A stretch of DNA of 64,000 nt from Trachythela sp. YZ-2020 (Eukaryota > Cnidaria > Anthozoa > Malacalcyonacea > Clavulariidae). The DNA lies in the NCBI GenBank assembly GCA_016169945.1, contig JADLSH010000395.1:2768501-2832500 (forward strand), written 5' to 3'. Under the pieces are notes generated by a model. The model saw nothing but the letters and a program-made list of their open reading frames with translations. It did no database searches and had not been told where the DNA came from. Below are positions 9,454-56,000 of the stretch, in pieces. The number at the start of each line of letters is the position of its first letter. Within the stretch, counting starts at the first letter, position 1. Position numbers and translations under genes: made by a program.

Positions 9454-9495
9454 AACCCTTTAATATTTTATAGCAGAAGTAACACTTCTAGGAAA
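9454..9495. repeat. 42-bp direct repeat, left flank of the Ngaro insertion
   Basis: Identical to 17,698-17,739, immediately outside the two ends of the inserted element. It behaves as a target-site duplication. Confidence 0.85.
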
Positions 9496-9497
9496 CG

Positions 9498-10013: not shown

Positions 10014-10019
10014 CCTGTG

Positions 10020-10865
10020 AACTCCGTTTTGTACTGTTTGTTTCTGTTCCATTTTGCGTTTTTATTGACAACGCCCTAATTTTATGAGGGCGTCTATTGT
10101 CACACTCTTTGATTATGCAGTATATATCCCCTCTGTACTTGGTGTTGATATATATTATGCTTATATTTGTTATATTATTATGGGCTAGAGCGACATGACT
10201 GTTTTCAGATGCCCACGTTGAGATTTCAATATTGGGTTTTTCCTGCACAGGGCATATTCACGATTATCGTGCTGGTTATATATACGTTTATATAACGTGT
10301 TTCCCCTAGTAGTCTGTCTCGTCTTTTGTTAGACTAACCTACATGTATGTCCTCGTACTTGCTTCGTGCCGCGCTGATATTTAATGTTTAGGGTATATAT
10401 GACTGGCTGATCCTGTGTTTGGAAAAAATGCATGTCTCAGTGGGATAGTGCAATTTATTGTTTTCAGATGCCCACAGTTGAAATCAATATATTGTGGGAC
10501 GGTGCGGCATGTTGTTTTCAGATTGCCCGTTTTTATATTATTTTGCAGCATTTATAATGGATGATCTATTGCGGCTACCTTCGCTGTATGCCATGATTAT
10601 TCCGCTGCGTTGTTTGTTTGTTTGTTCATGTTTAATGTTCCGTTGTGGATATTGCAGCTATTATAAGGATGATATTTTGCGGCTACCTCCGCTGTATGTC
10701 CTGATTATTCGGCTGCGTGTGTGTTCATGTTTTCGTGTTCCTGCGTATACATTTATATCCATATAATTATATCACGAATCGCTTCACCGTACGGAAAACC
10801 CGGCCCAGCTTTGCCTGTCTATGGCCAAACACAATTCTGCCTGTCTGCGTTCTGACATTTTTCTT
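10020..10865 (+). repeat. Ngaro internal spacer with degenerate tandem repeats
   Basis: No ORF is convincing. Short motifs recur at irregular spacing: TTTTCAGATGCCC at about 10,205, 10,460 and (variant) 10,515, and a ~110-bp block containing TGCGGCTACC and CGCTGTATG at 10,571 and 10,678. It separates the hydrolase from gag and may hold the gag-pol leader. Confidence 0.6.
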
Positions 10866-10870
10866 TTAGA

Positions 10871-12016: not shown

Positions 12017-13574
12017 CAATCTTTACCCGTTATTATGTGGATACGATGTTGGATTGGCGTTAAATTTATATAATGGTTTTAAGTTCGGTTTTTCCCTTCA
12101 TTTTGAAGGATCTCGTATATCATTTTTTGGTTCTAATCTCGTTTCCGCGCAACAGAATCCTGAGATAGTTAGTGCTAAACTCTCGAAAGAATTGGCTGTC
12201 GATCGCCTAGCTGGGCCTTTCAACAGTCCACCCTTCCCTGATTTTCGCGTTTCCCCCTTGGGGCTGGTACCTAAAAAAGTCCCTGGGGAATATCGCTTAA
12301 TTCACCATTTGTCTTTTCCAAGTGGTGAATCTGTTAATGACGGCATTGCTCACGAACATTCGACTGTACATTATGCTCGTGTTGATGATGCCGTTAAAAT
12401 GATCAAACAATTAGGGCGCGGCTGTTTCCTGGCAAAAACAGATATAAAGAGCGCATTTCGTATTATCCCAATAAGGCCTTCCGATTACGATCTTGTAGGA
12501 ATGTTTTGGCAAGGGAAGTATTACTATGATCGCGTTATGCCCTTTGGCTGCGCGTCATCTTGTCGCACTTTCGAGATGTTTAGCACTGCTATCGAGTGGG
12601 TTGCTAAGAAACACTTGCAAATCCCACATCTGATCCACATTCTTGACGATTATCTAATGGCGTCATCTACTTATCACCAATGTCGCATTGACCTTGTCCG
12701 TTTCTTATCTCTCTGTAAATATTTAGGCATACCAATCGCACCCGAAAAAACTGTCGGCCCACAAACTATTCTTTCTTTTGCTGGCATTGAATTAGACACT
12801 TTTCGCATGGAAGCCCGTTTACCAGACGACAAGACCGATAAATGCAAATCTCTAATCTCTGGCTTTCTGCGTCGCAAAAAAGTTACTTTGCGTGAAATAC
12901 AATCGTTGACCGGTTTACTTAATTTTGCTTGCTCGGTAGTTGTCCCTGGTCGGGCTTTCTTGCGCCGTCTTATCGATTTGACAAAAGGCATCAAGTTCCC
13001 ACACCACTTCATTCGTCTCACTAAATCGGTTAAGGCCGATCTTGCCATTTGGCGGTCCTTTTTGGACGATTTTAATGGCCGATCGTTTTTTCTCAGTGAT
13101 GTTTGGAACGATTCGTTCAGTTTAAATCTATATACCGATGCTGCTGGTAGTTTGGGCTACGGTGCTATATTTGGCGATGAGTGGTTTTTCGGTGCATGGC
13201 CTCCCAATTGGAGGCAATTAAATATCACGATTTTAGAATTTTACCCAATTGTACTCAGCGTACTTTTATGGGGAGATAAGATGCGAAACCAGCGTATCAC
13301 CTTTTTTACGGATAATGCGGCATTGGTTGATATTATAAATAAAGCCACTTCACGTGATGTGACTGTTATGATATTTGTCCGCCGACTGGTGCTGGCATGT
13401 TTGAAATTTAACATTTTATTCCGCGCTCGCCATGTTCCGGGTGTCAAAAATGTTTTAGCTGACGCTTTATCTCGATTGCAGGTTTCGAAGTTCAAACAGC
13501 TAGCTCCGGTAGGTGTACAATCGTCACCAACGGTCATACCAGCTCAACTACTCCCGTACAACTGGCCGCTATAA
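11907..13574 (+). CDS. Ngaro reverse transcriptase / RNase H
   Basis: A 555-codon open frame. RT fingers and palm are clear: FRVSPLGLVPKK, RLIHHLS, FLAKTDIKSAFR, MPFGCASS, and the catalytic box HILDDYL. RNase H follows with LYTDAAG, a catalytic Glu in ILEFYP, FTDNAALVD, and the closing NVLADALSR. The protein copies element RNA into DNA. The N-terminus overlaps gag in the +1 frame, so the annotated first residues are probably not the true start. It is the best preserved ORF of the element. Confidence 0.88.
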   Translation: MVSFTRLFVVIFVAKSSPLAQPQVSPSPVLPTPVLIDNLYPLLCGYDVGLALNLYNGFKFGFSLHFEGSRISFFGSNLVSAQQNPEIVSAKLSKELAVDRLAGPFNSPPFPDFRVSPLGLVPKKVPGEYRLIHHLSFPSGESVNDGIAHEHSTVHYARVDDAVKMIKQLGRGCFLAKTDIKSAFRIIPIRPSDYDLVGMFWQGKYYYDRVMPFGCASSCRTFEMFSTAIEWVAKKHLQIPHLIHILDDYLMASSTYHQCRIDLVRFLSLCKYLGIPIAPEKTVGPQTILSFAGIELDTFRMEARLPDDKTDKCKSLISGFLRRKKVTLREIQSLTGLLNFACSVVVPGRAFLRRLIDLTKGIKFPHHFIRLTKSVKADLAIWRSFLDDFNGRSFFLSDVWNDSFSLNLYTDAAGSLGYGAIFGDEWFFGAWPPNWRQLNITILEFYPIVLSVLLWGDKMRNQRITFFTDNAALVDIINKATSRDVTVMIFVRRLVLACLKFNILFRARHVPGVKNVLADALSRLQVSKFKQLAPVGVQSSPTVIPAQLLPYNWPL

Positions 13575-13597
13575 CAACTAAATTAGTTCAATCTAGT

Positions 13598-14468
13598 TTG
13601 CAGCCATCGTCGGTCCCTACATATCGCCGGGCCTGGAAACTATATAGCCAATTTTCAAGTGCAGTTTTTCACTCAGCTTTAGTCCCACTGCCTATATCGC
13701 CCGCCAACTTAAGCCTATTTATTTCGTACATGTTCCAACGCAATTATGCGGCCTCGACGGCCAACACGTACGTTTCTGCACTGGGATATTGTCATCGTCT
13801 TGCGGGGGTGAACGACCCAACTAAAGTATTTTGGATTGTTGAAATGTTGAAAGGATATGGTAAGCTTGGGTCACGCTGTCGATATACCCATAACTCTTCC
13901 TATCCTTCGCACCGTCTTACAACAAACTCCAACAATATGTTCGAGCGAGTATCGTGGGTACTTGCTCAAAGCTATGTGCACGACCGCATTTTTTGCCTTT
14001 TTACGAGTTGGGGAAATCACTTGTTGTCCCCGGTCACCGGACGTACTGCAATTGAATCAGGTCGTTCAACCCGTTGATAATGCGGGCAATATCAGCGGTT
14101 TAAAAATAACATTTTTTAATTATAAGCATTCTTACAACCAATCTAATGTCTCGCTCACACTTCAACGACGTTCAGACGTATGCCCAGTGCAGAGCTTGCT
14201 AGACTATTTTGCACATCGTGGTTTGGCTGATGGCCCCCTTTTTCAAACTCGTGACGGGCATGCAATTTCACGCAAAATGTTCACAGACCATTTAGCTATT
14301 ATATTTCGCACGTGCGGTCTCGATGCAAACAAGTACAAAGGCCATAGTTTTCGCATCGGCGCGGCTACTTTTGCTGCCGAATGCGATTTTTCCGATGCCC
14401 AAATACGACTAATGGGTCGTTGGAAATCCGACGCTTTCCGCAGGTATATTCGTGCTCCTAGCCTGTGA
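13598..14468 (+). pseudogene. Ngaro tyrosine recombinase, one frameshift
   Basis: The N-terminal core-binding part (13,598-13,856: PTYRRAWKLY, NTYVSALGYCHR) is in one frame and the catalytic part (13,857-14,468) in the next, split by a single-base shift near 13,860. Catalytic residues are present: Arg in FLRVGEI, His and Arg in GHSFRIGAATFAAE, and Tyr in GRWKSDAFRRYI. This enzyme integrates the circular DNA intermediate by site-specific recombination. The frameshift would disable it unless suppressed. Confidence 0.85.
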
Positions 14469-23447: not shown

Positions 23448-25149
23448 ATGGATATTAATCTCGAGGAAAAATTTAAAACTATGAAAATGCCAGAGTTATT
23501 AAAGAAGTATCTTCAAGATCGTGGCGTTAGTGTGAACAGCCAACTAAAGCCAGGGTTAGTCGCTATTGCGTGCGCTGTGGAAAGCATGAAACTGCCCCTG
23601 ATAAATCGAATAACTATCGAGCAAGAGAAGCAAAATTTGATGCGACGGTTGTCTATCCACGGTTGCCAGTTAGCCGACCCATTTACAATGAAAGTGGAAA
23701 ATGATTTTCAGAACTCTCCTCCTTTTGGTCTTTTTGACATCTTTAAGATTACCGTCTCTTTCGCGAAGGGTATGTGGAATCCTTACAAAGCTTTAACAGA
23801 AGGAAACTGGTGTACATGTTTATGTTTGTAAAGTTAAACCGGCCATGAAAGAGAAGACAAAAGACGGAAAACCATTCTACAGCTTGTGGTTTATTTTAGA
23901 AGGTAAAGGAGCAAATCGTGGTAGTGTTGTAGATGCATATTGTCTATGTTTAGGAGGACGTGGTGGTGGGTGCAAGCACATTGCGGCTGCGCTTTACTCG
24001 TTAGAAGAACTTTTAAACAGCCGCGGAGAAGACAGCGTCACAAGTGGACCTTGCGTGTGGATTAGAAAACATTCCCCTCAAACCACCCTGTGCGAGTTAA
24101 AAGATCTTAAAATCGGCAAAAACAATGGCAACGGCGTTGCAGAATCAAAGAGTCCCAAAAGGTCGTACACGTTTTCAGAATACATTGATTACGATCCTCG
24201 TGCTTTATGGGACAGAATGCCATGTAACACGGACGAACTAATGGGTGTGGTCGAAGCGATGACTCCAATGGTCGATAAACCTACCATCCTGGACGTACTT
24301 GAGAATCAGTTACGTCTTGAAAACGATGTTTCCTCTGTTCCAGCTGTTGATAAAACAGATCCTAACCCGAATTCCAATGGCAACAAGTCGCCCTAACGTG
24401 GAATTATGGAAAATAAAATCGTTTTATATTTGCAACATGTAATGGCAAAAGGCGAGGCAGGTGAAAGTTCGCAAGAATTCTTAGAGCAGCTGCAGTTTAC
24501 AGATGAGGAACGAAATCATGTAGACACTATAACTAAGCAACAGTGGTAGTGTGAAGAATGGTTCAATCACAAAATTGGTTTTATTACAGTTCATTCCAGA
24601 CAAGAATCCACCGAAAAGCTTGTCACCGATACCTCTGCATTAGTCAACCAACTTATCCAAAAGCGAAAGAGTCGCCATAGCATGAAACTACCGGATGACC
24701 CGAAAAATCCTATGCAATGGGGATTAAAACACGAAAGCAGCGCACGTAACGCGTACTACAAGACTGAAGGAAGAAATCACCACAAACTTCAACTGGTCAC
24801 CAAAGGCTTTATGATCTCAGCAGAGAAACCCTATTTGGGTGCAAGCCCAGACAACATTACCTCTTGTAGCTGTACACCAGTTTGCAAGAGTGTTGTTGTT
24901 GAATACAAATGTCCCTGGGCCCATAAAAACTCTGATCCAAAAGAAGCTTTTTTCAGTCCTGAGATCGGTGGTACGCGGAGAAATGGCCAGTTCTCATTGA
25001 AGGAAAATTCAATATATTATTTCCAAATTCAGATTCAAATGTACGTGTACATGCAAACTGCATATATAGCTATCCTTAGTACAGTTAAAGCCACCACCTC
25101 TATGGCAAGTTTTAATCCACCGCTCTCGTTTCTCTCCGTGCTGTCGTGA
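23448..25149 (+). pseudogene. SAP-like / SWIM zinc finger / YqaJ exonuclease protein, decayed
   Basis: The first ORF (23,448-23,831) begins MDINLEEKFK and has an SAP-like helix pair (PELLKKYLQDRGVSV). After a +1 shift near 23,815 the second (23,845-24,396) carries the SWIM finger YCLCLGGRGGGCKHIAAALY (C-x-C...C-x-H). The third part, in the same frame after stops at 24,394 and 24,547, is a YqaJ/lambda-exonuclease-like PD-(D/E)xK nuclease: EEWFNHKIGFIT, WGLKHESSA, GASPDN, VVEYKCPW and YYFQIQIQMYVYM. The metal-binding Glu, Asp and E-x-K are all there. In related proteins these domains lie in one chain, so one frameshift and two stops make this a pseudogene. The extreme C-terminus after 25,070 is unrecognisable. 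Confidence 0.8.
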
Positions 25150-26777: not shown

Positions 26778-27620
26778 TTACGATTTCTTCTTGATGCTGC
26801 GCGATGCCAAGTCATACGCATGGGTGAGACGGGCACGAAGACTGTCCACAAAAGTAGTGTAAGATTTCTTCTTTTCTTGTGGAACGAGGTCCAAGCTGAC
26901 ATCGATTGGCAGACGTCGATTACGCCTAAACATCAGGAAATAAGGTGAATAACCCGTAGAGCAGTGTTTTGTGCAGTTATATGCATGCACAAGTGGTGCC
27001 AGGTAGTCCGGCCAAGCGGTCCTCTTTTCTTCATCTAACGTACCGAGCATTCCTAGTAGTGTTCGGTTGAACCTTTCAGTCTGACCATTTCCTTGTGGGT
27101 GGTAGGGTGTTGTTCTCGTCTTCTCTATGTTGGCCATCTTGCACAACTCTTTGATCAACCGACTATCAAAATCTTTTCCTTGATCGGAGTGGAGTCGTTG
27201 AGGGAAACCGTAATTCACGAGAACGTTCTCCCATAAAACCTTTGCGACCGTTTGCACCTTTTGGTTCCTGGTAGGGAACGCCCATGCGTACTTAGTGAAG
27301 CTGTCAGTCACTACTAGGACGTTTTCGTAGTCTCCTTTTCCCTTCTCAATTGACAGGAAATCCATCGCTAGTAATTCCATAGGTTCAGTTGCCAAAATCG
27401 AGATCATTGGTGCATGTGGAGGGTCGACAGCTTTACGTTTGATGCAACGTTCACATGTTTTAATGTACGAAACGACGTCCCGAGTCATTCCAGGCCAATA
27501 GAAACGCTCGCGGAGTAGATCCACAGTTTTATCCTTCCCCAAATGGCCAATGTCTTCGTGGAGACTTTTCAGAACTTCCTTGCGCATTGCAGCGGCAATA
27601 CTAGCTGAGAAGTTTCCCAT
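26778..27620 (-). CDS. Gypsy-1 integrase
   Basis: 281 codons. The zinc-binding HHCC start is visible as HEDIGHLGKDKT...CERC, followed by the catalytic core: Asp in LLAMDFLSIEKG, Asp in LHSDQGKDFDS and Glu in GQTERFNR (D,D35E arrangement). It inserts the cDNA into the host genome. Overlapping codons upstream (27,569-28,057) are in another frame, so pol is frameshifted near 27,590. Confidence 0.87.
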   Translation of the reverse strand: MGNFSASIAAAMRKEVLKSLHEDIGHLGKDKTVDLLRERFYWPGMTRDVVSYIKTCERCIKRKAVDPPHAPMISILATEPMELLAMDFLSIEKGKGDYENVLVVTDSFTKYAWAFPTRNQKVQTVAKVLWENVLVNYGFPQRLHSDQGKDFDSRLIKELCKMANIEKTRTTPYHPQGNGQTERFNRTLLGMLGTLDEEKRTAWPDYLAPLVHAYNCTKHCSTGYSPYFLMFRRNRRLPIDVSLDLVPQEKKKSYTTFVDSLRARLTHAYDLASRSIKKKS

Positions 27621-28120
27621 TCTTCGACAACATGCTTGCGAAACAAAATTCCATCTCGAATTACAAGACGCTCCTTCTCCCTCAATAACTGGAGGACCTG
27701 TTGGTTGCCAACCAGATCATGATGGTTTGAAATGGTGTTGTGGTGGAGGATATTCCGAACCTTCCCAATGACAGGATTATCCGCCATTTGGAGTCTTTTC
27801 CAGTCGGCTTGAGAAATTGCTCGAAGGTCAGTCTGTGGTGGCGTAGGCGGGGTATGTAGAGTGTCCGCGACAGCTTCAACCCGTATGGTGATTGCTTCTA
27901 CCGCTGGGTAACCAACTTCCTCGCTCGTGTAGTGCGTGTCTACTATATGATACTTGCAGATTGCTCGGAACTCGTCGCTCGAACAAACAGCATCTTCCTC
28001 TGTAAGACACTGTACCCTATCTAGGAACGGTTTCACATATTCTTCATCAGTAGGCACAGAGGATGTTTCGTTATCCTCTGCATGTGGTATCTTGGAGAGG
28101 CCATCTGCGTCAGCCGAAGC
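27569..28120 (-). pseudogene. Gypsy-1 RNase H end / connection to integrase
   Basis: Begins with a DADGLSKIPH block, the typical end of Gypsy RNase H, then a linker and DGILFRKHVVEEW just before the integrase zinc finger. A frame change connects it to the integrase ORF. Confidence 0.65.
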
Positions 28121-37012: not shown

Positions 37013-37840
37013 TTGGTCAAAATCCTTCAGAACATCAATGATCCTACTAGCAAATATCCTAACATTTTCAAAGGCATCGGTAAGCTAAAAGATACACAAG
37101 TTAAAATTCACATTGACGATTCCGTAAAACCAGTGGCTCAAAAACCTCGACGTGTACCTTTTCATCTTAGAGACAAAGTTGAACAGGAAATCGAGAAACT
37201 TTTAGATGAAGATATTATTGAAAAGGTTCATGGTGATCCCACCCCGTGGGTATCACCCATTGTCGTTGTCCCGAAGAAAGATTCTGAGTCCGTTCGTGTC
37301 TGTGTAGATATGCGAAAGGCAAATCAAGCAATAATTCGCGAAAGACATCAAATGCCTACCGTTGAAGAACTTACCTCAGATCTTAATGGTGCGAAAATTT
37401 TCAGTAAAATAGATCTTACATCAGGCTATCACCAACTAGAACTCACTCCTGAATCTCGGTCAATCACTACCTTCAACACCCATGTTGGTTTATTCAGATA
37501 CAAAAGATTGAACTTTGGGATATCTTCTGCCTCCGAAATATTCCAAGAAACAATTCGTAATGTCATACAGGACATACCCAATGCAAGAAACATCAGTGAT
37601 GACATTATCATCTTTGGAACCACTCAAGAACAGCATGACAAAACCCTTGAAGCTGTTTTCAGACGTTTGCACGAGAAAGGACTGACCATCAACAAAAGTA
37701 AGTGCCTTTTTAATCAATCTACAATTAAGTTCTTTGGCCTGGTATTTGGTTCAGAAGGTGTTTCCCAGACCCCTGCAAAGTCGATTCCATCCAGCATGCA
37801 ACCAAACCCACTAATGTTGGTGAAGTTAAAAGCTTCTTAG
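37013..37840 (+). CDS. Gypsy-2 reverse transcriptase
   Basis: Contains KPRRVPFHLRDKVEQEIEKL, PWVSPIVVVPKK, RVCVDMRKANQAI, IFSKIDLTSGYHQLEL, LNFGISSASE and the catalytic box NISDDIIIFG, followed by FFGLVFGSEGVS. Frame is lost at about 37,775 before the thumb continues in 37,843-. Confidence 0.86.
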   Translation: MVKILQNINDPTSKYPNIFKGIGKLKDTQVKIHIDDSVKPVAQKPRRVPFHLRDKVEQEIEKLLDEDIIEKVHGDPTPWVSPIVVVPKKDSESVRVCVDMRKANQAIIRERHQMPTVEELTSDLNGAKIFSKIDLTSGYHQLELTPESRSITTFNTHVGLFRYKRLNFGISSASEIFQETIRNVIQDIPNARNISDDIIIFGTTQEQHDKTLEAVFRRLHEKGLTINKSKCLFNQSTIKFFGLVFGSEGVSQTPAKSIPSSMQPNPLMLVKLKAS

Positions 37841-37842
37841 GA

Positions 37843-39758
37843 ATGACAAACTACTGCTCTCGTTTCATCAAAGATTATGCAACCATTTCAGAGCCGTTGC
37901 GGCGCCTAACAAAAACAAACACCCCTTGGTGTTGGTCAGACGAACAAGAGACCGCTTTTCTTTCCCTTAAAGATAGCTTAACAAGTAACTCAGTGATGAG
38001 ATATTTCGACCCTCAAAAAGAACTCACAATTATTGTGGACGCAAGCCCAGTCGGACTAGGCGGTATTTTAACACAAGATAATTATGTACTTAGCTATGCC
38101 AGTCGATCATTGACTGAAGTAGAATCACGATACAGCCAAACGGAGCGCGAAGCTCTAGCCATTGTTTGGGCCTGTGAACATTTTGACATGTACACTAACG
38201 GTGCACACCATTTTACCGTAATAACTGATCACAAACCCCTCGAGAACATTTGGAAAAAGGCGAATCCCACACCCAGAATACAACGGTGGGGTCTACGATT
38301 ACAACCTTACAAATTCACCATTTCCTACCAACCGGGCAGTACCAACCCAAGCGATTACTTATCACGACACCCAGAACCAAATGACCAAACGCGCACTAAG
38401 ACATCATTGCAAGAAAGAGTCGCAGAACAGTATGTTAACTTTCTTGCTATCACATCAACCCCACGGTCAATGACTTTAGATGACATTAAGAATGAAACTA
38501 AAAAAGACAAAACTATGCAAAAAGTTATGTCGTTGGTTCGTTCATCTCGATGGCATGAAATCAAATCTATAAATGACCCCAACATCGACATGAAAGAATT
38601 ACAGTTGTTTTACAACGTGCGAGATGAGCTTGTCTGCCACACAGACAATATTTTATTGAGAAATAATCTCATCGTCATACCCTCTGCATTACGTCGTCAA
38701 GCCATTGACATTGCCCATGAAGGGCATCAAGGCATAAACCGCACAAAATCATTCATTAGATCAAAGATATGGTTCCCAAGAGTTGATGAACAAGTTGAAG
38801 ATATAATTAAGAGCTGTATAGCATGCCAAGCAGCAACATACACGAACACGTCTAACATGGAACCTCTTAAAATGTCAGATATGCCTGAGAAAGCATGGGA
38901 ACACTTAAGTGCTGACTTTTGCGGACCTCTTCCCACAGGGGAATACCTGTTTGTTATCATTGACGAACATTCACGCTACCCCGTTGTAGAGATTGTCCAA
39001 TCGGTCTCAGCCAATACGGTGATTCCAATCCTTGATAAAGTTATATCACAATTCGGATGCCCTAAAGTCATAAAAACTGACAATGGCGCCCCTTTCAACT
39101 CCCTCGCATTTGCAAACTATGCTAAATACATATAGGCTTCGTCCATCGCAAAATAACTCCCTTATGGCCAAGAGCGAATGCCCAAGCAGAATCCTTCAAT
39201 AAACCCCTAATGAAGTCCATCCGAACAGCGCGCCTTGAAGGCAAGAATTGGCGTCAAGAAATGCATAAATTCCTTAGACAATACCGATCCACACCCCACC
39301 CAGCAACAAAGTTCCCTCCATTCCAACTTCTATTTGGCCGAAGTCCACGAACAAAACTTCCCGAAATTTCAAACAAGGCTGACCCAGAACCCGCTGCAAC
39401 AACGCAAGCTAAACTGAACGACAAGTCTGCCAAAGCCAAAGCGAAACAATATGCTGATCGTCGAAACAAAGCAAAGAAAAAAGATTTCAAGGTCGGAGAT
39501 AAGGTTTTAGTCAAAAGTGAGAAGATGGGTAACAAGTTTACAACTCCATATCAACCCGAGCCTTATACTATCCAGACAAAGAAAGGATCTATGCTTACAG
39601 CAGCCTCGAAAGACAGAGTTGTCACAAGAAATTCGTCTTTCTTCAAGAAAGTCTCAGATTCTACTGACTATGAACAAAAACAACATCATCCAGACTCGGG
39701 AAGACCTTCAAGGAAGAAAACTGTACCTAAATATTTGGAAAATTTTGTTAGAGATTAG
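37843..39758 (+). pseudogene. Gypsy-2 RNase H and integrase, one frameshift
   Basis: RNase H: LTIIVDASPVGLGG, SRYSQTEREALAIVW, FTVITDHKPL and PSDYLSRHP. Integrase zinc finger: HEGHQGINRTKSFI...CIACQ. Core: LSADFCGPL (Asp), KTDNGAPFNS (Asp). A single-base shift at about 39,133 (KYI then GFVHRKITPLWPRANAQAE) moves the Glu and C-terminus to the next frame, which ends at 39,758 with a basic KFTTPYQPEPYTI region. Otherwise complete. Confidence 0.85.
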
Positions 39759-42468: not shown

Positions 42469-42752
42469 TGTGCTTTGAGCGTTTGCTCACCGACTCGCAA
42501 AGAAGTACTTTGTTGTAAATCTGTCAACGACAACGCAAGTACTGTATAACATTTCAGTTTTGATAAAAAATTTCTACTTATATGTTACTATACCGCATGT
42601 GGTGCACGGATAATGCTGTTGTGGTGCATGGATAATGCAATTACACGCATGTGCAGCTCTCCTCAATTATACGCATGCGCAGTGAAGCTCTTATTGTTTA
42701 ATTAATCGCTTGGGCTTGACCTAATTATCACGTACATATTTGTCAAAAAACA

Positions 42753-42879
42753 GATCGGGAACCCCAAGGGAACCCCGGGAGAACCCCTAGGGAACCCCGA
42801 GAGAACCCGGCCCCAGAGAACCCTCAGAGAACCCCGAGAGAATCCCTACAGAACCCCAGAGAACCCCGAGAGAACCCCC
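42753..42879. repeat. Degenerate GAGAACCCC minisatellite
   Basis: About ten copies of a 9-13 bp unit with core GAGAACCCC or GGGAACCCC. G-rich on the minus strand. Confidence 0.8.
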
Positions 42880-43037
42880 ACATAAAAGTATTTTTATAAG
42901 AAATTTCCTCTTATCAATAGCAGCTTCTAAAGCTTCCCCTGGATCAAAATATTGTTTACAGTCCAGTTGCACAATATAATAATCATTATGACATCTTATA
43001 AAATGTTTACATCTACCGAACCGGACTCGAATCGGTG

Positions 43038-44480: not shown

Positions 44481-45007
44481 GTGTTATAAGGGTTTACCCC
44501 ATTTTTATTTAAGCTTGGGTTCAGGATTAGACGCTAGGATTGATGTATTAAACCAAGTGGCTGTTCAACCAAATTTGGCCCAAAGAATAGATAGTTTGTC
44601 TGATTTATTTGTTTTTATATAGACGGGTCAAATAATTCGTCTGGACTAAGGAATTCCATCAATTATCAATTAACATCGCAACTTTGAAATAGTTTTAAAA
44701 TTTCCCTGAGCAGGTGATGTCAGCCCCAAATATCCCTTTTCACCACCCCACATCCCTCCCCCATCCCCCGTGTTGGCCGGTTCCAATTTACCGTTACTCA
44801 AAGAATATATTATCACCAGTTTGAAAGTCTAATGTGCACTTTTTGTTCATGATATGAAACTTAATCTAGCTTCCATTTACCAATTAAACGTGCAAGAATA
44901 TCTGCCTAAGTGTTAGTGATAAGAACGTTAAAATATTGCATTAATGATTATATGTGATTATACGTGCAAGGTGTTTCAAAATTATTTGATGAACTATTTT
45001 TTTCACT

Positions 45008-45099
45008 TCATTCTTCCTTCTTCCACCCTTGTTTCAGCAATCCCTCGGCTTCCTCGCCTGAGATAAAGTTTTCGTCGTTTGACAGAGTCCGCGTGAATT
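45008..45099 (-). CDS. Exon 6: acidic C-terminus and stop
   Basis: Acceptor CTTCCACAG as in exon 4. FTRTLSNDENFISGEEAE and a Lys/Glu end before TGA at 45,010-45,008. No canonical AATAAA is visible in the next ~70 bp downstream. Confidence 0.75.
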
Positions 45100-48000
45100 C
45101 TGTGGAAGAGCAAAATATACATATGAACAGTGTATCAAAGCTATTTAATGTTTTTAGAATAGTAATAAAGACGAAAATTCAGTTTGTCTGAAGTGAAAAA
45201 CTCTCTAAAAACTCAGGTAAGAAATTCCGTAAAACTTTCATATCTCTGTCGAGGTGTTGGTAACACAGTGGTTAGTGCATGTGAGTTTCATCTCTGCGAC
45301 CGAGGTTTGGTTCCAGCAATATGCTGATATATATTATTTTGCCTCAGTTGCTGATGAGAAAAGTGACGTGTTTCTAGTTTAGGTCTACGAAACACCGCAG
45401 GTTTTCTCCGTGTACTCCGATTTCTTCCTAGTAACACTAGACCAATGAGAACTTTCCCTTTCCTTGATACGAGAAGACTGCTTGGAACAGCCCGAGAGCT
45501 ATTCGAATTGCCTCGTTTGCTGATAGCTCATGCATGCGAGAAGCAATTAAGAGGTTATTTGATTCATTATTTTTCACACATACCTTCATCTCGGAGGGTA
45601 TTGGCCCAACTGCAAACCTTTTTCACGACTAGAAAAAAAAGATAAACTAGAAAATGTACAAGGTAGAGCCTGGTTTTAACCATAGCGACATCAACATAAG
45701 CAAGAACAAAATCATAACTTTTCCTCTTGAGGCTTAAGACTGTAATAGAATCCCCTCCAATGCTAAGTGGTGGATGAAAGCGCTTGTTTTCTTTAGGGGG
45801 GGAAATGGAAATATATAATATGGATCATAGTTTGAAATGGTATGAAAATGGCATTTAGTATCAAATGATACTAACTCTAATATTAATTTTCATTCGCCAC
45901 TTCCTCTTGAGGCTTAGGCTAACACCAGGATCCTCAATGCTAAGTGGTGGATAAACTATTGTTTTAATATGGAAACACCATGGGTATAATATGGATCATA
46001 GTTTGAAATGGTATGAAAATGGCATTTAGTATCAAATGATACTAATTCCATACTAATTGCCATTTCATACTATGGAAACACCATGGATATACTATGGATA
46101 TAATATGGAAATACTATGGAAACACCATGGATATACCATGGATATAATATGGAAATACTATGGAAACACCATGGATATACTAGCTATGGATATACTGTAG
46201 ATATAATATGGAAATACTATGGAAATAACATTTCTATATTATTTCCATAGTATGGATTTCAAAATAATTTTCCATCGACACTTGGTAACACTAGGCCTCA
46301 TTTATTTTGGATAGTCCAATTTACAATTAACAAGATTTTGTAAGGTACTGACACAATTGTTTGGAATACTCTCAGTGGCCGTAGTGTCGTCAGCCTACCA
46401 AAAATCTAAAGGCGTCTGCGGTGCAGGCTATAGTTTCGTCAAAGCATTTCCACCTGTCTGTCCAATTGATCAAGAGGTCATTGATCATCACTAGAAGAAG
46501 AGTTGGCCCTAATACAGTTCCCTGTGGATCGCATCATCAAGTAATAATACCCTTCCCTCGACCTTCAGTAGCAGTTCAACTCAGCAGTAAGGAGCAGCGC
46601 ACTATCTGCTACCCATGCTACCCTACCTCGGGTTTTCTGCTCGGATACATTTTTAAGTCTGCCTGAATCTGTTCAAATAAAGCAGCGGTACTAGGACTTA
46701 CTTCTATTTCTAGAATCTCGAAACCATTTGCAAACACCCTTCAGACATTCATGAGCCTTTCGAAGACGATTCGTAAACGTAGGTCTACGACGACGTCTAC
46801 GTCTACCAAATAACCATGGTGCACGTTTGGAAATTTCTGGTTCATCTTCGTCGTTTGATGTTTCATTTACACTGTCCAAGGCGTTCTCTCTGAATTGAAA
46901 TAATATATAGTGTTGCAATAGTTTGTTCTAAATCTAACTAATTTTAAAAGCTATTATATTATAGTAGAATTAGGGGTATAATGGTTTGGGGTAGTGTGGT
47001 ATGGTATGGTTTGGTATGGCATTGTATGGTGTGGTATGATGGTGTGGAATTGTATAGTGTGGTATAGTATGGTGTGGTATAGTATGCTGTAGGTATGGTA
47101 TGGTATGGTATGGTATGGTATGGTATGGTGTGGTGTGGTGTGGTGTGGTGTGGTGTGGTGTGGTGTGGTGTGGTGTGGTGTGGTGTGGTATGGTATGGTG
47201 TGGTATGATATGGTGTGGTGTGGTGTGGTATGGTGTGGTATGGTATGGTATGGTATGGTGTGGTATGATATGGTGTGGTATGATATGGTATGGCGTGGTG
47301 AGATATGATGTAGTATATTATGGAATGGTGTGGTAAGGTATGGTATGAAATTGAATTTAAAACTAAACAATAACAATACAAACAAGGATCAAGGGGCTAT
47401 AATCTGTTGCTAAAAAGTTGGGTACAAAAACGTCTAAAAGTAATCTTTTAAAAAGGAACGAAATCATATCAATCACGTTTTGAATACTTTTGTCACATCG
47501 TTTTGAATTATACAGGAAAAAAACCATTGTCATTCGTTTGTTTTTGGCCCAGAATCGTTTTCCTTTTCTTAAACCGGCAGCTTTTTTACCATTTTTTACT
47601 TCAACAACAGTCATCTAACACCATGGACACAGCGTACAAAATTAGATAACTTCAGGCAATACATTTAATAGATAAAATATTCTTTGATAACATGTTTTAC
47701 TTACGATGCATCATCATCGGCTTCTTCGGGGGAGATAAAGTCAGTTTCGTCCTTAGACAGACGCGGGAATTCTGTGGAAGAATAAAAATATGCATAATAT
47801 GAACTTAGACAGTGCATATATATTTATGACAGAGCTATTATTGTTTTGAATAGTAATAAAGATGAATATTAACTTGGTAAACAATCACATAAGAAATTCT
47901 GCAAAACTTCCATATCAGTTTTAAGTTGTTGGTGGCACTGGCAGTTGTTAGTGCATGCATGTGCCCTTGATCTGTGTGAATGTGTGATTATGGTTGGGTC

Positions 48001-51000
48001 CAGCATGCAATAAAAGTTGGCTGATTATAATTTCGCCTAAGTTGCTGGTAAGAAGAATACGTGTTACTATATTAAGTCTATACCAAACACTGTGTTTTCT
48101 CCGTGTGCTCCGGTTTCCTCCCGTAGTAACACTGGAGCAATGAGAAATTATCCTTATTGCCAGTAGCGGAAATTATCCTTATTGCTAGTGAGGGTCAGTT
48201 GCCCCACACCCCCTACCTTTACGGAAAATTGACGGAATTTTGGCCTAAAAAGGGTTAAAAATAGTCTATTTTGTCAGAAATTTAGGAGGCTTTCCCCCAC
48301 CGGAAAATGTGAATTTCCGCCACTGCTTAGTGCCCATTGGAATAAAGTTATTCAAATCGCCTGGTTTGCTGACAGCTCGTGCATGCGAGCAGCAAAAGGT
48401 TACTTCATTATTATTTTTGCACATATACCTTCATCTCGAAATCGGATTATATTAACCAAATGGCAAATCGATTTCAGAACTAGAAAAAAATTGAAAAGAT
48501 AAATTAGAAAATGTACAAGATATAAAAGTCTGGTTTCACCCATATATGCATATATATATATAGCGACGCCAACATTAGCGAGAACGAAATAATAACTCTT
48601 CCTCTTGCGGAGACAAGAGGCTGTCTCTGTAAAACTCCAGGTCAATATGTGGCTAAAAAATATAGATTTCTTTCAGATACTCTAGTATTTTGAAGGTCTG
48701 TCCTTGGGAACAACTAATATCGATTTGATTTGGTTCAAATTTCTCTTAAAATATTTTTTGGGACCAATTAATTAATGTTCAACCGGCTGGAAGCTAACTT
48801 GAACTCCGAAAGAAGGCAAAATATCGATATATTGTCACCGCAATTTGCCAATTTATAAATCAAATTCATACTCCAGTTTCCTCGGTCATATGACTTAAAT
48901 AATTATTCTTTTGTATATAATATACAGCAGCGCAGTTATTGACCCCCTGCACAGTAACGGACATCACCTCAAAATATACCAAGTTTGAGAGCATATTTCA
49001 AAATCGTGGCACGTGATTGAAACTTTTCCATTATTAGTTTATTTTCCTGTAAACTACTAACATTAGTCAATACAAAACGCCAATAAAAACTTTCTGTTCT
49101 ACCATTTTGAAAAAATGACAAGCGCTCAAACTTTGTAAAGTTTAAAAATGCGTCGAAATCGAGCAAACTTTATTCGTTAGCATATACTCATTGTTATTAC
49201 CACCTAAAATTGCCTTATACTGTATTGACTATTGTATATGAAGCTTGGTTGTGTAATTAAGTCGTTCATTAAAAAATACGACTTTAAAGAAATTTGAACC
49301 AAACCAAATCGCCGATATTAGTTGTTCCCAAGGACAGACCTTACCTTCCAACAATTTTCAAATGATGTTCTATACTGTTTCTTTGGCATATATTTAAAGA
49401 AAATATTTTCAATTCGAATTATCAGAACGACTTAGTCAATACTATAGCCATGCAGGCAGTGAGGCAGTCACACCAAATATTTCAACATTGCATGCAATTT
49501 GCATGGTTTATGATATTGAATTGAATTCATTCATTTGGAATTTGAATTATATAAAAATATTTATATTGTTTCCTAGATGGCTAAATTACATCAGAAAATA
49601 TTTACAGCATACAAGAAAAAACAAAATCTGAGAAACAATAGCTATTCGATTTCTTCACTCACTGTATATAGTAGAGAATATAATGCAAAACATGTGCTGC
49701 GTTTTTAAGAACTTGTCCATAGTTAACGTAGTGTGCACTATTAATATATGTTTCTGCTTTAGCTTGTTTAATCAGAACTGGAATTCTTACTCTGCAGACC
49801 TGTGCACCACGATGCACAGAACGATGCACCACGGAATACCATCTTAGGAATCGCCGTGTTTTCCAACTTCCAAAGATTAAGACGGACAGATTTTTTAAAA
49901 CTTTTATCCCAGCTTGTGTTAAACATTTGAGCTAATCTCAATTTTTTAGAATTATTTGTATATATATACTAATTAATATAGCTAATATTGTTATACCTGT
50001 CACGTTTTAGGAAGAGTTACTATTTTTAGACTTTTGTAATTTTGCATTCTTTTGTATTTTAACCCTAATCCTAATCCTAACCCTAATCCCAATCCTAACC
50101 TTAATCCTAACCCTAATCCTAACCCTAACCCTAAAAGTTTAACAATAGTAACTGTTCCTAAATCGTGACTCGTATGTGAATTTTGTAATTCAGTTTGTCA
50201 GCTGCAAAGTGTTTTTTAATAAAATATACTATCATGTTATATATAGTTAAAATTTTATCAGGTAAACATTCTTATTGTGCATGGTTATCTTTGATAAACT
50301 TAAGATAAACATTCTTTAGAGTAAGAATGCCAGTTCTGATTAACGCCTCTTCACAGGTTAAAGGTTTGTAGAACTTCGTCTTCGATTTCTTCACTTACTG
50401 TATATATATATTATACCTGTCACGTTTTAGGAAGAGTTACTATTTTTAGACTTTTGTAATTTTGTATTCTTTTGTATTTTAACCCTAACCCTAATCCTAA
50501 CACTAATCCCAACCCTAACCTTAATCCTAATCCTAACCCTAATCCTAACCAACCCTAACCCTAAAAGTATAAAAATAGTAACTGTTCCTAAATCGTGACT
50601 CATATGATATATATAGTTGAAAATATAATGCCAAACTTGGACTGTTAAGAACTTGTCTATAGTTAACGTAGTGTACACTATTAATATATGTTTCTGCTTC
50701 AGCTTGTTTAAGTAATCTTAACATTTAAAGTATTTCCCTGCGTTCTTCAAAATATTGTATGTTCGTTCCATCCCAAATAATCAATTCGAGCAGATTTAAC
50801 TGCTGTAATAGGAACCCTTCCCTGCGTTCTTCAAAATACTGTATGTTCGTTCCATCCCAAATAATCAATTCGAGCAGATTTAACTGCTGTAATAGGAACC
50901 CCTCCAATGTTTAGTGGTGAAAACGATCGGTCGTCTTTAGAAATACTTTTCTGCCTGAATCCTCTTAAAATCAATCAGCGGTGCTAGGACTTACCTATTC

Positions 51001-53362
51001 TAGACCTCGGAACCCATGCGCAAATACCCTTCATGCATTTATGAACCGTTCGAAGATTAGGTATAATTTGAAATCTATGACGACGACGAGGACGAGGACG
51101 ACGAGGACGACGAGGACGACGAGGACGACGAGGAAGACGAGGACGACGTGGACGACGAGGTTGACGAGGACGACGAGAACGACGAGGTGCACGTTTGAAA
51201 TTTTCTGGTTCATCTTCATCGTTTAATGTCTCATTTACACTGTCCAAGGCGTTCTCTCTGAGTTGAAAGAATATATAGTGTGCTTACATCAACCACTGAA
51301 CTTCAGTTTGTTTTTACATCTAACTAATTCTAAAAGCTTCTATAGTAGAATTAGTAGAATGCTTTGGTGTAGTGATGGTTTGTTATGGTGTGGTATGACG
51401 GTGTGAAATTGTATGGTGTGGTATGGTATGTGGTATATGGTATATGGTATAGTGTCATGTGGCGTGGTATGGTATGCGGTGTGGTGCATGTAGTGTGGTA
51501 TGGTAGTATAGTATGGTGTGATATGGCGTGGTGAGGTATGGTGTGGTATAATATGGTGTGATGTGGTGTGGTATGGTATGAAATTCAATTGAAAACTGAA
51601 TTATAATAGTACAAATTCGGCTATTTTCTGTATTCAGCTAAATCTGTTACACAAGTATTCAAAAACGACTAAAAGGAACTGAAACGACAAAGATCAATTA
51701 CGGCCAATTTTGAATACATTTTTACATATTTTCGGATTAAACACGAGAAAACCACGACCATTCATTTGTATTGGGACAAAAATAGTCTTCCCTCTCTTAA
51801 TTTGTTCTTACAATTTTTTACTTAAACAACAGTCATTTTGACATCATGAACGTAAAAATTATTAATGCGAATTTGAACAAACATATCATGCAGTATATTT
51901 AATAGAGATAAAATTACTTACGATCCATCATCATCATTTTCTTGGTTCCTGAATGAATCTGCCCTGCATAAAAAGAAATACTTTAACTGTTAAAATATAA
52001 AATATTTTCCTTGAACCAAATGTACTAAGTTATTTATACTGTATAGTACTGTAAACCTCTGCATCTCACTCGATTGGAATTAAGGTAGAAGGTCGAAATA
52101 TCCACCATCTAAACCTTCTACATGTATAGTATGTACATGTATCAGTTTTCAACCAGAGTTTTAACAAATCTTAACAAGTCCTGAAATTTTAACTGAAGGG
52201 GGGCTCTTCATGGGAGGCTTTAGGGCATGAACCGCCAGAAGATTTTCAATTCTTGGGTGTCTGAAACGCGATTTCCTGCATTTTAGGTGATGTTATAAAA
52301 TGTATAGTTAATAGTTTTATCATTGTATTAAAAGAGAATTGGTCGGAATACCATCCTGAATATAAGGAAAATTAACATTACTAGTCTGCCCTTCAGAAAT
52401 TGAATAGAAATAGATTGCATCTCAAAAGTAGGGGGGGGGACACCGCCAAAAAGGGCACATGGGGGGGCCGGATAAAAAATACCCTGAAATTACAATGTAA
52501 GGAACAAGCATTGTAGGCTGTTCCGACGGGGTCTAAGGTCTCTGCAACACCATTTCCTGCATTCTGAGGCCATTTTTATAATCTAAACGTTATAAGCGCA
52601 TGGATTTTGCTTATTGATTGGAGGGGGAGGGAGGGGGCACTTTCAAACCAGAAAAGAGGGCACTTTCATTTCAGAAAAGGTGCGCTTTTTCCATTTTCGA
52701 AAAAAGTAGGGGGTGCAAATGCCCCCAAGTGCCGCCCCATCCCGGTTCCGCGGCCCCTGGGGATAACTGTATTTTAATTGTAGAATGATGCCAAATCTTA
52801 TCTAATTGGCAAAAATTTGTTATACTATCAAAGATTATTTATATCTTGATAAAAATCTTAAGAATCTAAGAGGGGCTCAGCCCCAGCCCCTCCCCAACTA
52901 GAAGGAGATTTTAACAAGGGGTGCTAAGCCCCCTGAGCCCCCTTTCCACTACATCCCTGTTTTCAACTGTTCTTCGTAGAGGTTAAGTAAGGACCATTTC
53001 TTATGATAGTTTGGTACGGTGTAAGGAAGGAACCAGAGCACCCAGAGAAAATATGTGGTGTTTGATAGTGTCAAACTGCAGGAAGCATTCCTAATTCTCA
53101 CATGCAACTGCACGATTTGAAATTATAATCTGAACCTTAACTTGAATATTACAGTAAAATGAAGCAAATAAATAATATAAATTATTAAGAGAAACTAAAA
53201 AGCACGAACTTACAATTGCCCATCATTTTCAGTGTCACTTTTGACATCTTCAAAGGATTGTTCTTCAAAATCGTCGAGTGCTGCAGTTTCTTCAGTGCGC
53301 CCAACGCTAAGAAACACAGCACAGACTGCAACCAGCAGAGCAATAATTGTCCAACACTTCAT
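45008..53362 (-). CDS. Secreted polyprotein precursor with two Arg-rich Cys-pair peptides (six exons)
   Basis: Coding exons, minus strand: 53,362-53,214; 51,963-51,922; 51,257-50,995; 47,771-47,705; 46,889-46,702; 45,099-45,008 (stop TGA). All introns are GT-AG with GTAAGT donors, and phases are 2,2,1,2,1. Total 801 nt, 266 residues, no internal stop. Residues 1-21 are a signal peptide. 22-84 is Asp/Glu-rich. Lys-Arg at 85-86 precedes a 65-residue segment with about 28 basic and no acidic residues, Pro-Arg-Arg repeats and C-M-K-G-I-C-A-W at its end. A second acidic part leads to Lys-Arg at 195-196 and a 41-residue Arg-rich segment with C-L-K-G-V-C-K-W. The C-terminus is acidic. Acidic propiece plus cationic product is usual for invertebrate antimicrobial peptide precursors; neuropeptide or other secreted roles remain possible. 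I cannot name the family. Confidence 0.8.
45250..45330 (+). repeat. tRNA-like SINE head in the last intron
   Basis: TAACACAGTGGTTAGTGCA (A-box-like) and GGTTTGGTTCC (B-box-like) are 25 bp apart. A diverged relative lies at 47,925-48,010 in the paralogous intron. Confidence 0.5.
45715..46260. repeat. Intronic tandem and palindromic repeats
   Basis: Two copies of a ~180-bp block (start 45,721 and 45,901) lead into repeated ATGGAAACACCATGGATAT-type units (46,070-46,230), rich in the palindrome CCATGG. Confidence 0.7.
46300..46560 (-). pseudogene. LINE RT fragment in intron 5
   Basis: Minus-strand frames give DPQGTVLGPTLLLVMINDL, WTDRWK and a DDTTATESIPN block, matching the PQG..LGP and YADD region of LINE RT with several stops. 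Confidence 0.55.
46702..46889 (-). CDS. Exon 5: second acidic spacer, Lys-Arg site and Arg7 peptide
   Basis: 188 nt, phase 2 to 1. NALDSVNETSNDEDEPE, then ISKR and a peptide beginning APWLFG followed by seven Arg and CLKGVCKW. Confidence 0.83.
46985..47345. repeat. GGTAT/GGTGT minisatellite in intron 4
   Basis: About 70 units of TGGTA or TGGTG with strict strand asymmetry (no C on the plus strand for long runs). The ORFs across it are low-complexity artefacts. A shorter relative is at 51,365-51,580 in intron 2. Confidence 0.9.
47705..47771 (-). CDS. Exon 4: acidic spacer
   Basis: 67 nt, phase 1 to 2. FPRLSKDETDFISPEEADDD. Related to exon 6. Confidence 0.8.
50061..50135. repeat. Interstitial telomeric repeat, copy 1 (CCCTAA type)
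   Basis: About twelve CCCTAA, CCTAAT and related hexamers in intron 3, C-rich on the plus strand. Confidence 0.88.
50481..50564. repeat. Interstitial telomeric repeat, copy 2
   Basis: Same hexamers with identical flanks (49,990-50,060 equals 50,410-50,480), so a ~420-bp block including the telomeric tract was duplicated. Confidence 0.88.
50736..50903. repeat. Two tandem copies of an 84-bp unit
   Basis: 50,736-50,819 and 50,820-50,903 are nearly identical, in intron 3 close to exon 3. Confidence 0.88.
50995..51257 (-). CDS. Exon 3: acidic spacer, Lys-Arg site, Pro-Arg-Arg repeat peptide
   Basis: 263 nt, phase 2 to 1. NALDSVNETLNDEDEPE is followed by NFKR, then PRR repeats encoded by a 9-bp minisatellite and CMKGICAW. 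Homologous to exon 5 over its whole length except for the repeat region. Confidence 0.82.
51365..51585. repeat. TGGTATGG-type minisatellite in intron 2
   Basis: Diverged counterpart of the 47 kb minisatellite at the same place relative to the paralogous exon. Confidence 0.8.
51922..51963 (-). CDS. Exon 2: small acidic exon
   Basis: 42 nt, acceptor TATGCAG, donor ATC|GTAAGT, phase 2 to 2. Encodes ADSFRNQENDDDG plus split codons on both sides. Confidence 0.78.
53214..53362 (-). CDS. Exon 1: signal peptide and first acidic spacer
   Basis: The start ATG (53,362-53,360) follows a TATA-type box by about 50 bp. A hydrophobic core at residues 5-20 is followed by an acidic stretch (DDFEEQSFEDV). The donor is ATT|GTAAGT, leaving phase 2. 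Confidence 0.85.
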
Positions 53363-53411: not shown

Positions 53412-53419
53412 CTTTTATG
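53412..53419 (-). promoter_or_regulatory. TATA box of the peptide precursor gene
   Basis: CATAAAAG on the minus strand, 50 bp before the ATG. Implies a start site near 53,385 and a very short 5' leader. Confidence 0.55.
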
Positions 53420-56000
53420 CGTACCGTGCGACGTGGCACAAAATAGATGAAAGAGTTTCTGAGTTTAGCCTGGAGGCTGGAATGCGGAAAAAGTATCAAG
53501 ATAACAGGATACCACGCTTTCAAGTGTGTGCCCTGTTTCAGAAAGTGTTTAATTTCATTTTACGCAGCTTGAGGTTAAATCTCCTTCGGCAATGTAATTA
53601 AATTTCTATGTTCTTTGATGTTTAGACCGTTCAAACCACACAGTCCAACACAGTCCATCATATTTGTCCAAAACTGTCGGACGATGTTGGTTGCAAATTT
53701 GAATCAAATCAAACCTGATCCATCACCAGCCAACATAAAATTATAGTGTTCCAGCAGACCCAACAACGTTGCATCCAACAATTAATGTAGAATCGTGTTA
53801 GACTGATTTGAACGGGCCTTAAAGAATAGAATACACCTTCAGTTGTACGCTTGTTCAGAAAGAAGCGGCCTTTTTAATGATAGATAATTAACAATTCAAA
53901 CGTATATGCTAGCATGTTATATATCATTTGAAGCTTACACGATCCTAAAAACGAATATCATGGCTAAATATTACAAGCAGGTATACATACGAAACATCAT
54001 AAATTGTCTGAACCTATTTATTCTTAGGCATGTGGCATTTAATCTTCGTCTTGAGAAAAATATTAAAGAATGCTTCGTTTCAGGAAGGGCTCAACATAGG
54101 GAAAAAGCATACATCATCTTTTTTCTAAAAGTCAAACATTCACAAAATTAGACAAAGGCCAGATGCCTACGATGCCTATAATGAATACCTATTTGAAACA
54201 TTTAGCGTTTTCAGCATGTTATAAGCTTTAAAATGATATATAACTAGCACATAATTGAATTATCTATAATTTAAAAGGGCGCTTCTTTCACTAGTGCATG
54301 ATATAGCTTGTACCAGCATTTAGAGAAAATGGATGAAGTTTATATGGTCGTTAATAATTGTGCTATTTTGTAGAAAACGCCGCGCTTATTTATTTGGCAA
54401 AGCGTTTTCGATTAGTAGCACATGCAACTCTTAGGCTTTCAATAAGTCTTCTTTTTCTGTACATGCAGTGGACCAAAAATCGCCGAAATAGACTGCAAAT
54501 AGTCTTCTGTTTCCTTTTTGACATAGCAGCTAACCACATATGTTACAAACTTACAATTCCCAGAAAGCCTGTTTGCATGTTTGCAGTTTCTTTATTATTC
54601 CATTAGGTTACACTATCAGTGACCATTTTAAGGACCAAATGCCAAATTATGTCCATTATTAATGAAACTTTCTCGAAGACTTTTCAAATAAAACTATAAA
54701 GTTTACGTTAGGCTAGTAGGCTCAAATCTCGAACGTGCGGTGCCAGTGTAGGTTAGCGTCTACACAATAAGCTTCGGGTCTTTAGGATCATCTACCTGAA
54801 AATTAAAATACAACTTAACAAGAACTTGGAAAATTGTGTATTTTTCCGTAACTCGTTTACATCTTTCAAACGTCGGGGGTTAACTCGAGTAACAAAACGG
54901 TTCCTTTGTTCGAGTTCAGCCCCTATTTTTCTGGGGGCTTAAATCGAACTATCTAAACTGTGTTATCTAATTTGAGTTAAGCCCTCGAAGAAAATGGCAT
55001 GGTTTGGGCGTGGTCGGGGCTTAACTCGAAGGGGCTAACTCGAAGATTTGCTACCCCATATTTATTAATTTAAGCCTCGCGGCTTGTTTGTACAACCTTT
55101 AGGATTAACACCCACGCATACCCCCCGTTGGTTTTGATGCCAAAGCCATTATCATTAGCAATTACGCCCATTCGAAATATTTCTATTTGGAGATAATCGC
55201 TACCACTGACAAATTTTGTTCCTTTTTTGCAATAATTGTATATTTTCGGAAGATATTTCGCTCTCTTGATACAATGGTAGAATACGACCATAATTTGTTC
55301 TTTTAGGTAAAAATAAATAAATTGTTTTTTGTTTAAAACACCATGTTTATCTATTTGGCAAGAAACGTCGCTCGAGACGTCGATATTTTTTCAATCGTTA
55401 TATTACAATTAACTATCTACATATATCACGCGTATATAGATGGAGAGTTTAAGCTTTACGTTCACACGGTAAACGTCAGGCAAATAAATATATTCGGAGA
55501 TAAATATATAAATATATAAAATAAATAGAAATATTAGTAACAATAATAGTAATTGTGGCTAGTTCACCTAATACTTCAAAATTGTAAAAGATTGACTATT
55601 TGACTTGACCATTTGAAAATATGAAAGGAAAGAAAATTCTCCAAAAAAAACGTGAAGCTTAAACGTAACTGCCCGGGGACGAAAATTAACTGCCCGAGAC
55701 AACCTAAGCTGAAATTTTAACTGCCCGGGACAAAAATACTTACACTGAACTAAGGCTATAGAAAAATGAGTACGATATAACTAAGTCCCCCTGCATTAAA
55801 AATGAATTCATTCCAGCAGTGAAACAATGAAAGGCGAAACAGCAACATTAATGTCCAATTGTAAAATTTTTCAATTGTAAAATTATTGCTGCCGAAGGCA
55901 GCACACTATTCTTGACATGCTAAGGTTTCTCCAGAGTTCACTTGCCCCAGTCTTTTACGCCGACCTATGTATAGTCGAGATCGAGATCTTGCGTCTGTCA
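53420..56000. other. Intergenic region with scattered repeats, no gene recognised
   Basis: 53,624-53,825 has inverted ends (CCGTTCAAA versus TTTGAACGGGCC) and may be a small foldback element. 54,295-54,345 repeats at 61,708-61,755. 54,870-55,060 has several TTAACTCGA motifs. 55,100-55,330 is an inverted relative of 61,840-61,995 and its edge resembles the SWIM/YqaJ element terminus. Three AACTGCCCG motifs lie at 55,660-55,730. Confidence 0.5.

Follow-up and report, generated by a model that had tools for sequence, protein, structure and literature searches.

A six-exon gene of Trachythela sp. YZ-2020 for a predicted secreted precursor with two cationic segments, apparently diverged copies from one intragenic tandem duplication

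A 64,000-nucleotide stretch of the cnidarian Trachythela sp. YZ-2020 (contig JADLSH010000395.1 of assembly GCA_016169945.1, positions 2,768,501 to 2,832,500; hereafter the window) contains a six-exon gene on its minus strand, at 53362-45008. The analysis supports a split gene under constraint, whose precursor would have a signal-peptide-like start and, between acidic spacers, two cationic segments. An earlier reading made from the letters alone (the sequence-only reading) had described the gene but missed that the two cationic segments appear to be diverged copies, derived from one tandem duplication within the gene. The product is probably of the host-defence type, as discussed below.

The exons are separated by GT-AG introns of compatible phases (in order 2, 2, 1, 2, 1), with GTAAGT at all five donors and AG at the end of all five acceptors. 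Joined, they give 801 bases, or 266 codons and a TGA stop, in agreement with the exon number, splice sites and frame that had been proposed. All exons are given here by their minus-strand positions. Exon 1 (53214..53362) carries the start codon, a hydrophobic signal-peptide-like segment (about residues 4-20) and the beginning of the acidic region. Exon 2 (51922..51963) is an acidic exon of 14 codons, of phase 2-2, and its 3′ part would be one end of the duplicated unit. The first of the two peptide exons, exon 3 (50995..51257), encodes an acidic spacer, a Lys-Arg (KR) site and putative peptide 1, with a Pro-Arg-Arg repeat and the motif C-x-K-G-x-C-x-W. Exon 4 (47705..47771) is the junction exon, resembling exon 6 in its 5′ part and exon 2 in its 3′ part, with the junction at about 47726-47717. 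Exon 5 (46702..46889), the second copy of the peptide exon, again encodes an acidic spacer, a KR site and a putative peptide, here with Arg7 ahead of the same motif. Finally, the terminal exon 6 (45008..45099) resembles exon 4 in its 5′ part and ends in the TGA. Across the gene region (10.6 kb), the minus strand carries seven GTAAGT against 3.4 expected from base composition, and 5/7 are the donors of the gene; the plus strand of this region has none. When six stretches of matching lengths from the region were joined at random, the frame was open in 0/20000 cases, a mild control since the exons had been picked for being open. The GTAAGT at 54554 was considered as the donor of a second exon 1 and rejected, as no signal-peptide-like frame was seen by eye ahead of it. 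On weak evidence, a TATA-like CATAAA (53414..53419, minus strand), 57 bases upstream of the start codon, may belong to the promoter, and the first AATAAA past the stop (44604..44609, minus strand), about 400 bases downstream, may be the poly(A) signal.

The duplication was traced by comparing the gene with itself. A match at 69% links 51943-51365, starting inside exon 2, with 47726-47136, starting inside exon 4, and is followed by matches of 51580-51186 with 47237-46818 (76%, partly simple repeats) and of 51056-50950 with 46766-46658 (81%); this series runs through exons 3 and 5 and their flanks. A second series relates the DNA upstream of exon 4 to that upstream of exon 6 (48610-48346 with 45732-45497, 71%) and continues into the 5′ parts of both exons (48155-47717 with 45460-45045, 67%). 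In a three-way alignment, exon 4 tracks exon 6 as far as GAAGCCGA and then tracks exon 2 (GATGATG...ATCGTAAGT). Exon 4 is read as the joint of a duplication because the flanking DNA and introns match on both sides. The simplest history would be a single tandem duplication with its ends inside exons 2 and 6, which left exon 4 as the in-frame joint; exons 3 and 5 would then be copies of one peptide exon that have since diverged. The copies now measure about 4.2 kb (copy 1) and 2.7 kb (copy 2), and the difference lies largely in intron 3 (3.2 kb, with repeats) as compared with intron 5 (1.6 kb).

At the protein level, the window was searched by tblastn with six queries (exon 1, exons 1 and 2 joined, and exons 3, 4, 5 and 6 singly), which returned 102 rows. 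Exons 3 and 5 recovered each other (E 1e-14 and 5e-15), and among the matches listed this was the only clear non-self match. As protein, exons 4 and 6 matched each other poorly (E 0.02 and 0.13), and their relation is read from the DNA alignment. A few other rows, at E 7.7e-5 to 0.03, involved stretches of low complexity or basic composition, among them the antisense of the repeat at 51072-51203, a repeat at 42744-42904, and 55336-55398 against exon 5 (E 0.007). The last of these, on the plus strand, is faintly similar to the KRAP-Arg part of exon 5 but lacks the Cys motif; the similarity is probably one of composition.

Several repeats were observed in the introns. Long TGGTA/TGGTG arrays occupy 46997-47347 and 51365-51580, in both copies of the intron ahead of the peptide exon. 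Intron 3 holds two copies of an element, at 50411-50606 and 49991-50176, that are 91% alike over 196 aligned bases, and telomere-like TAACCC arrays (50480-50564 and 50060-50134) lie within them. The same intron has an 84-bp tandem repeat in two copies at 50734-50905 (97% matches), and intron 5 has a tandem array with a 44-bp unit at 46067-46227 (97% matches over 46067-46182).

The strongest evidence that the gene is real beyond chance comes from the comparison of the two copies, because the spacer coding is conserved between the duplicated exons and the introns are not. Over the acidic spacer plus KRAP (24 codons), 6/72 bases differ, with a nonsynonymous rate (dN) of 0.054 and a synonymous rate (dS) of 0.252, against 278/1007 bases in alignable intron (Fisher p 1.4e-4). 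The intron figure pools five stretches hand-picked for alignability, with repeat arrays and unalignable intron excluded, and the true divergence is probably higher. The peptide part (29 codons, aligned ungapped from the end, the Pro-Arg-Arg arm being excluded as unalignable) differs at 27/87 bases and 16/29 residues, with dN 0.479 and dS 0.198; the changes spare both Cys, the Lys-Gly and the Trp. Amino-acid change in the peptide part is faster than in the spacer: dN is 0.34-0.51 against 0.05, and the nonsynonymous excess is found at alignment lengths of 29, 24, 19, 17 and 14 codons (Fisher p 4e-5, 4e-5, 0.003, 0.001 and 0.002, respectively), with synonymous rates alike in the two parts at 29 codons (p 1.0). 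Within homologous coding sequence all four gaps have lengths divisible by three, compared with 12/25 gap runs in the introns, numbers too small to carry weight.

The predicted precursor was split at its Lys-Arg sites, and the net charge of each part was computed as K+R-D-E. Hydropathy over 15 residues peaks at 3.1 at the protein start; the signal-peptide call was made from hydropathy only, with its end at residue 22 set by eye. The first acidic spacer (residues 23-86) has a net charge of -20 and is followed by putative peptide 1 (50999..51190, minus strand; residues 87-150, 64 aa) at +28. The second spacer (residues 151-196) has -13, putative peptide 2 (46709..46822, minus strand; residues 197-234, 38 aa) has +12, and the C-terminal tail (residues 235-266) has -1. 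Past residue 22 the net charge is +6, so that the acidic and basic blocks roughly balance. The precursor therefore combines blocks of opposite computed charge, with secretion predicted from the hydrophobic start alone, and has the layout of a multipeptide precursor, in which a signal-peptide-like start by hydropathy precedes at least two peptide blocks between acidic spacers. KR is present in the protein at residues 85-86 and 195-196 only, and the peptides would therefore start at residues 87 and 197. The sequence-only reading had likewise placed a signal peptide, acidic spacers and two Arg-rich segments after Lys-Arg, with fragments beginning after residues 86 and 196, and hydropathy, charge and KR positions all agree with it. 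The spacers end in FKR and SKR, and both putative peptides open with Ala-Pro. The peptide ends (residues 150 and 234) were set by eye at aligned positions that are both Ser-Arg.

After their arms, the two putative peptides have in common L-R-x-x-H-x-C-x-K-G-x-C-x-W-x-x-x-S-R, with two Cys each. The core motif reads CMKGICAW in peptide 1 (51014..51037, minus strand) and CLKGVCKW in peptide 2 (46724..46747, minus strand). It occurs only these two times in all six frames of the window. The motif had been described as the end of each segment; it is indeed present in both, but six whole codons in exon 3 and seven in exon 5 follow the Trp. The arms themselves are different. That of peptide 2 is Trp-Leu-Phe-Gly-Arg7, and the Pro-Arg-Arg tract of peptide 1 is encoded by a 9-bp tandem repeat of about 12 copies (51079..51187, minus strand). 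CGT accounts for 23/27 Arg codons of exon 3, and this bias, together with the 9-bp repeat, suggests that the Pro-Arg-Arg arm may have grown by slippage.

Host-defence peptide genes usually combine a signal start, conserved charge-balancing acidic pro-parts, dibasic sites and fast-changing cationic peptides in which a Cys pair and a Trp are kept. A secreted prepropeptide gene of host-defence (antimicrobial) type is the best explanation of this gene and probably the correct one, because the fast-changing peptide beside a conserved spacer, together with the charge compensation, fits it best. What the sequence itself shows is an open frame after splicing, duplicated blocks, a hybrid exon and uneven conservation; secretion, cleavage, disulfide ring and antimicrobial action are steps that we infer. 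The ancestor would have been a one-peptide gene, with exons 1 and 2, a peptide exon and exon 6. A single tandem duplication, reaching from the middle of exon 2 to the middle of exon 6, would have made it a two-peptide gene, with the hybrid exon 4 in frame. The precursor would pass into the secretory pathway, where the acidic spacers (-20 and -13) could roughly offset the cationic peptides (+28 and +12) in storage, until a dibasic-cutting convertase frees two peptides after Lys-Arg. Each would have a disordered arm, rich in Arg or in Pro and Arg, and a small ring that one disulfide closes by linking both Cys of C-x-K-G-x-C, with a Trp after it; both peptides might bind microbial cells and then damage or enter them.

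Several points weigh against this explanation. Similar charge patterns are found in venom, neuropeptide and structural precursors. No KR, RK or KK lies between peptide 1 and spacer 2, the exact peptide ends are ill-defined from sequence, and neither segment has a Gly ahead of a basic pair for amidation. Moreover, the arm of peptide 1 holds six furin-type RX[RK]R motifs and the Arg7 of peptide 2 four overlapping ones, with none in the precursor outside the cationic arms, and RK occurs inside peptide 2; a furin-like enzyme could therefore fragment the arms rather than free whole peptides. The peptide part differs between copies to the same degree as the intron (27/87 against 278/1007 bases, p 0.53), and much of it could therefore drift freely. 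At 29 codons an excess of dN over dS in this part is marginal (bootstrap 0.036, Fisher 0.14), and shorter alignments lend it no support, with bootstrap values of 0.09, 0.17, 0.23 and 0.34 at 24, 19, 17 and 14 codons, respectively. Positive selection is thus not robust and suggestive only.

Exons 3 and 5 could also be used alternatively as cassettes, giving mostly a product of exons 1, 2, 3 and 6 or of exons 1, 2, 5 and 6, with the two-peptide form as the minor one. This is possible, although we hold it only tentatively, and it is compatible with a host-defence gene. Skipping exons 4 and 5, exons 3 and 4, or exon 2 keeps the frame, and all six combinations tried, the full form included, have one terminal stop; both peptide exons also have GTAAGT donors. 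However, an in-frame duplication gives such compatibility automatically, and skipping itself would be deduced from frame alone. A more elaborate and doubtful proposal sees here an orphan paired-peptide family, made by the in-frame duplication, in which specialised copies with a common ring would form a synergistic pair of fixed ratio, adjustable by exon skipping. The slippage-grown Pro-Arg-Arg arm would then mediate uptake and act on an intracellular target, as Pro-rich antimicrobial peptides (AMPs) do, and the aromatic-Arg7 arm would serve membrane attack, with the C-x-K-G-x-C-x-W ring common to both.

A precursor for venom or stinging capsules, with an acidic propeptide up to Lys-Arg and cationic peptides directed at prey or predators instead of microbes, would match the prepro layout, the conserved pro part and the fast mature part, and such a layout is also known from cnidarian toxins. 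Most venom peptides, however, have a compact multi-Cys fold, unlike peptides with two Cys and long Pro-Arg-Arg and Arg7 arms, and we regard this origin as unlikely. We are more sceptical of a signalling, neuropeptide-like precursor, in which two ring peptides would be cut out at Lys-Arg and guarded by their Ala-Pro N-terminus against aminopeptidases. X-Pro ends do shield cnidarian neuropeptides, Ala-Pro comes right after Lys-Arg in both peptides and the C-x4-C ring is kept; yet no basic site has an amidation Gly ahead of it, and the ligands of receptors are usually alike between copies, whereas here 16/29 residues differ and the arm is still more divergent. That the gene encodes a polycation for structure or storage (in an adhesive, a capsule or a mineral matrix), where charge would count and sequence would not, is very improbable: the near balance of acidic and basic blocks and a Pro-Arg-Arg tract able to grow by slippage of its 9-bp repeat would suit it, but the kept Cys pair, Lys-Gly and Trp and the sequence-level conservation of the spacer exceed what charge alone needs. 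A decaying duplicate, or a frame that is open by chance, as might be expected in a window rich in mobile elements where 5/9 scanned frames match reverse transcriptase or integrase, is scarcely credible given the conservation of the spacer relative to introns, the GTAAGT at five donors and the 266 codons free of stops.

Homologues were sought in several collections. A protein search with the full precursor met so many candidates that only the 8000 with the most shared words were scored, and the one weak match (E 0.54, 23% identity) was rejected. The exon 5 form, with its Arg run partly masked as X, had no candidate sharing three words, and the form with exons 1, 2, 5 and 6 (Arg run as X) had 28 candidates, none at E up to 10. 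A Pfam scan of the precursor listed three families at E up to 10, none above cut-off; the best of these was a phage model, at E 0.0054 and 16.2 bits where the cut-off is 35, and none of the three is a cathelin-like pro-domain as would be expected for a cathelicidin-type Pro-rich AMP. Similarly, a PDB search with exon 5 only gave nothing at E up to 10, none of 16 pattern matches in viral contigs was confirmed, and Rfam at gathering thresholds had no match in the window. No homologue was thus found, in collections that appear mainly microbial and may hold few animal genes, so that the absence says little. Four strings of the ring motif were absent from the open-licence literature searched, and among the titles and abstract openings surveyed there were precedents for such a gene but no description of it.

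Crustacean arasin precursors, with which the putative peptides can be compared, yield one peptide each. The comparisons that follow draw on partial texts of the sources cited. AMP precursors that yield several peptides have been called rare, though not totally unique (PMC8423362), and the earlier claim that two different cationic products in one precursor are unusual holds as to rarity, although such precursors are known. Indeed, Drosophila Baramicin A and bee apidaecin likewise derive several peptides, related tandem copies included, from one secreted precursor (PMC8423362). Baramicin has RXRR furin sites between its peptides, unlike the plain Lys-Arg at the spacer ends here (PMC8423362), and in contrast to both systems the putative peptides have a Cys pair, Arg-rich arms and an exon each; the likeness drawn here is one of architecture. 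The magainin and caerulein genes of pipid frogs also encode several peptides per precursor, through tandemly repeated peptide exons; the duplicated frog exons show quasi-zero divergence, whereas the copies here have diverged into two peptides and left a hybrid exon (PMC3731216). Hydra AMPs come from secreted precursors, mostly with halves of opposite charge, and the arminins and periculins are confined to the genus (PMC10945409). These duplicated, genus-restricted families resemble our precursor in their segregated negative and positive charge and in secretion, which is predicted here; compared by description, the present precursor differs in having two cationic blocks, each with a single Cys pair (PMC10945409). 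Arasins share with the putative peptides a Pro/Arg-rich arm at the N-terminus and Cys in the C-terminal part that comes after it, but by description they carry four Cys against two per peptide here (PMC11767717). Rumicidins were not used for comparison, as the available part of the source mentions no cysteine or disulfide (PMC11484942).

Multipeptide AMP precursors and exon duplication are thus already known, and what appears unusual is the divergence of the copies, which have not stayed identical, and the readable hybrid exon. A single gene would here record how one defence-type peptide became two, and its sequence still shows the two breakpoints, the hybrid exon and portions of the copied introns. 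If the peptides are antimicrobial, the gene would offer a clean test of whether a precursor can acquire new peptide activities with no second gene involved, and a new peptide family could be defined by the ring motif.

Elsewhere in the window, a GDSL-lipase-like frame (9492-10010) lies shortly ahead of a reverse transcriptase frame (11760-13574), and the whole of 9492-14468 looks like a mobile element; its frame at 13851-14468 had no Pfam match at E up to 0.001. A frame at 24550-25149 has a YqaJ-like recombinase domain. Finally, integrase frames lie on opposite strands at 26778-27716 and 37729-39135, the latter also with RNase H domains, and are probably remains of LTR-type retroelements.

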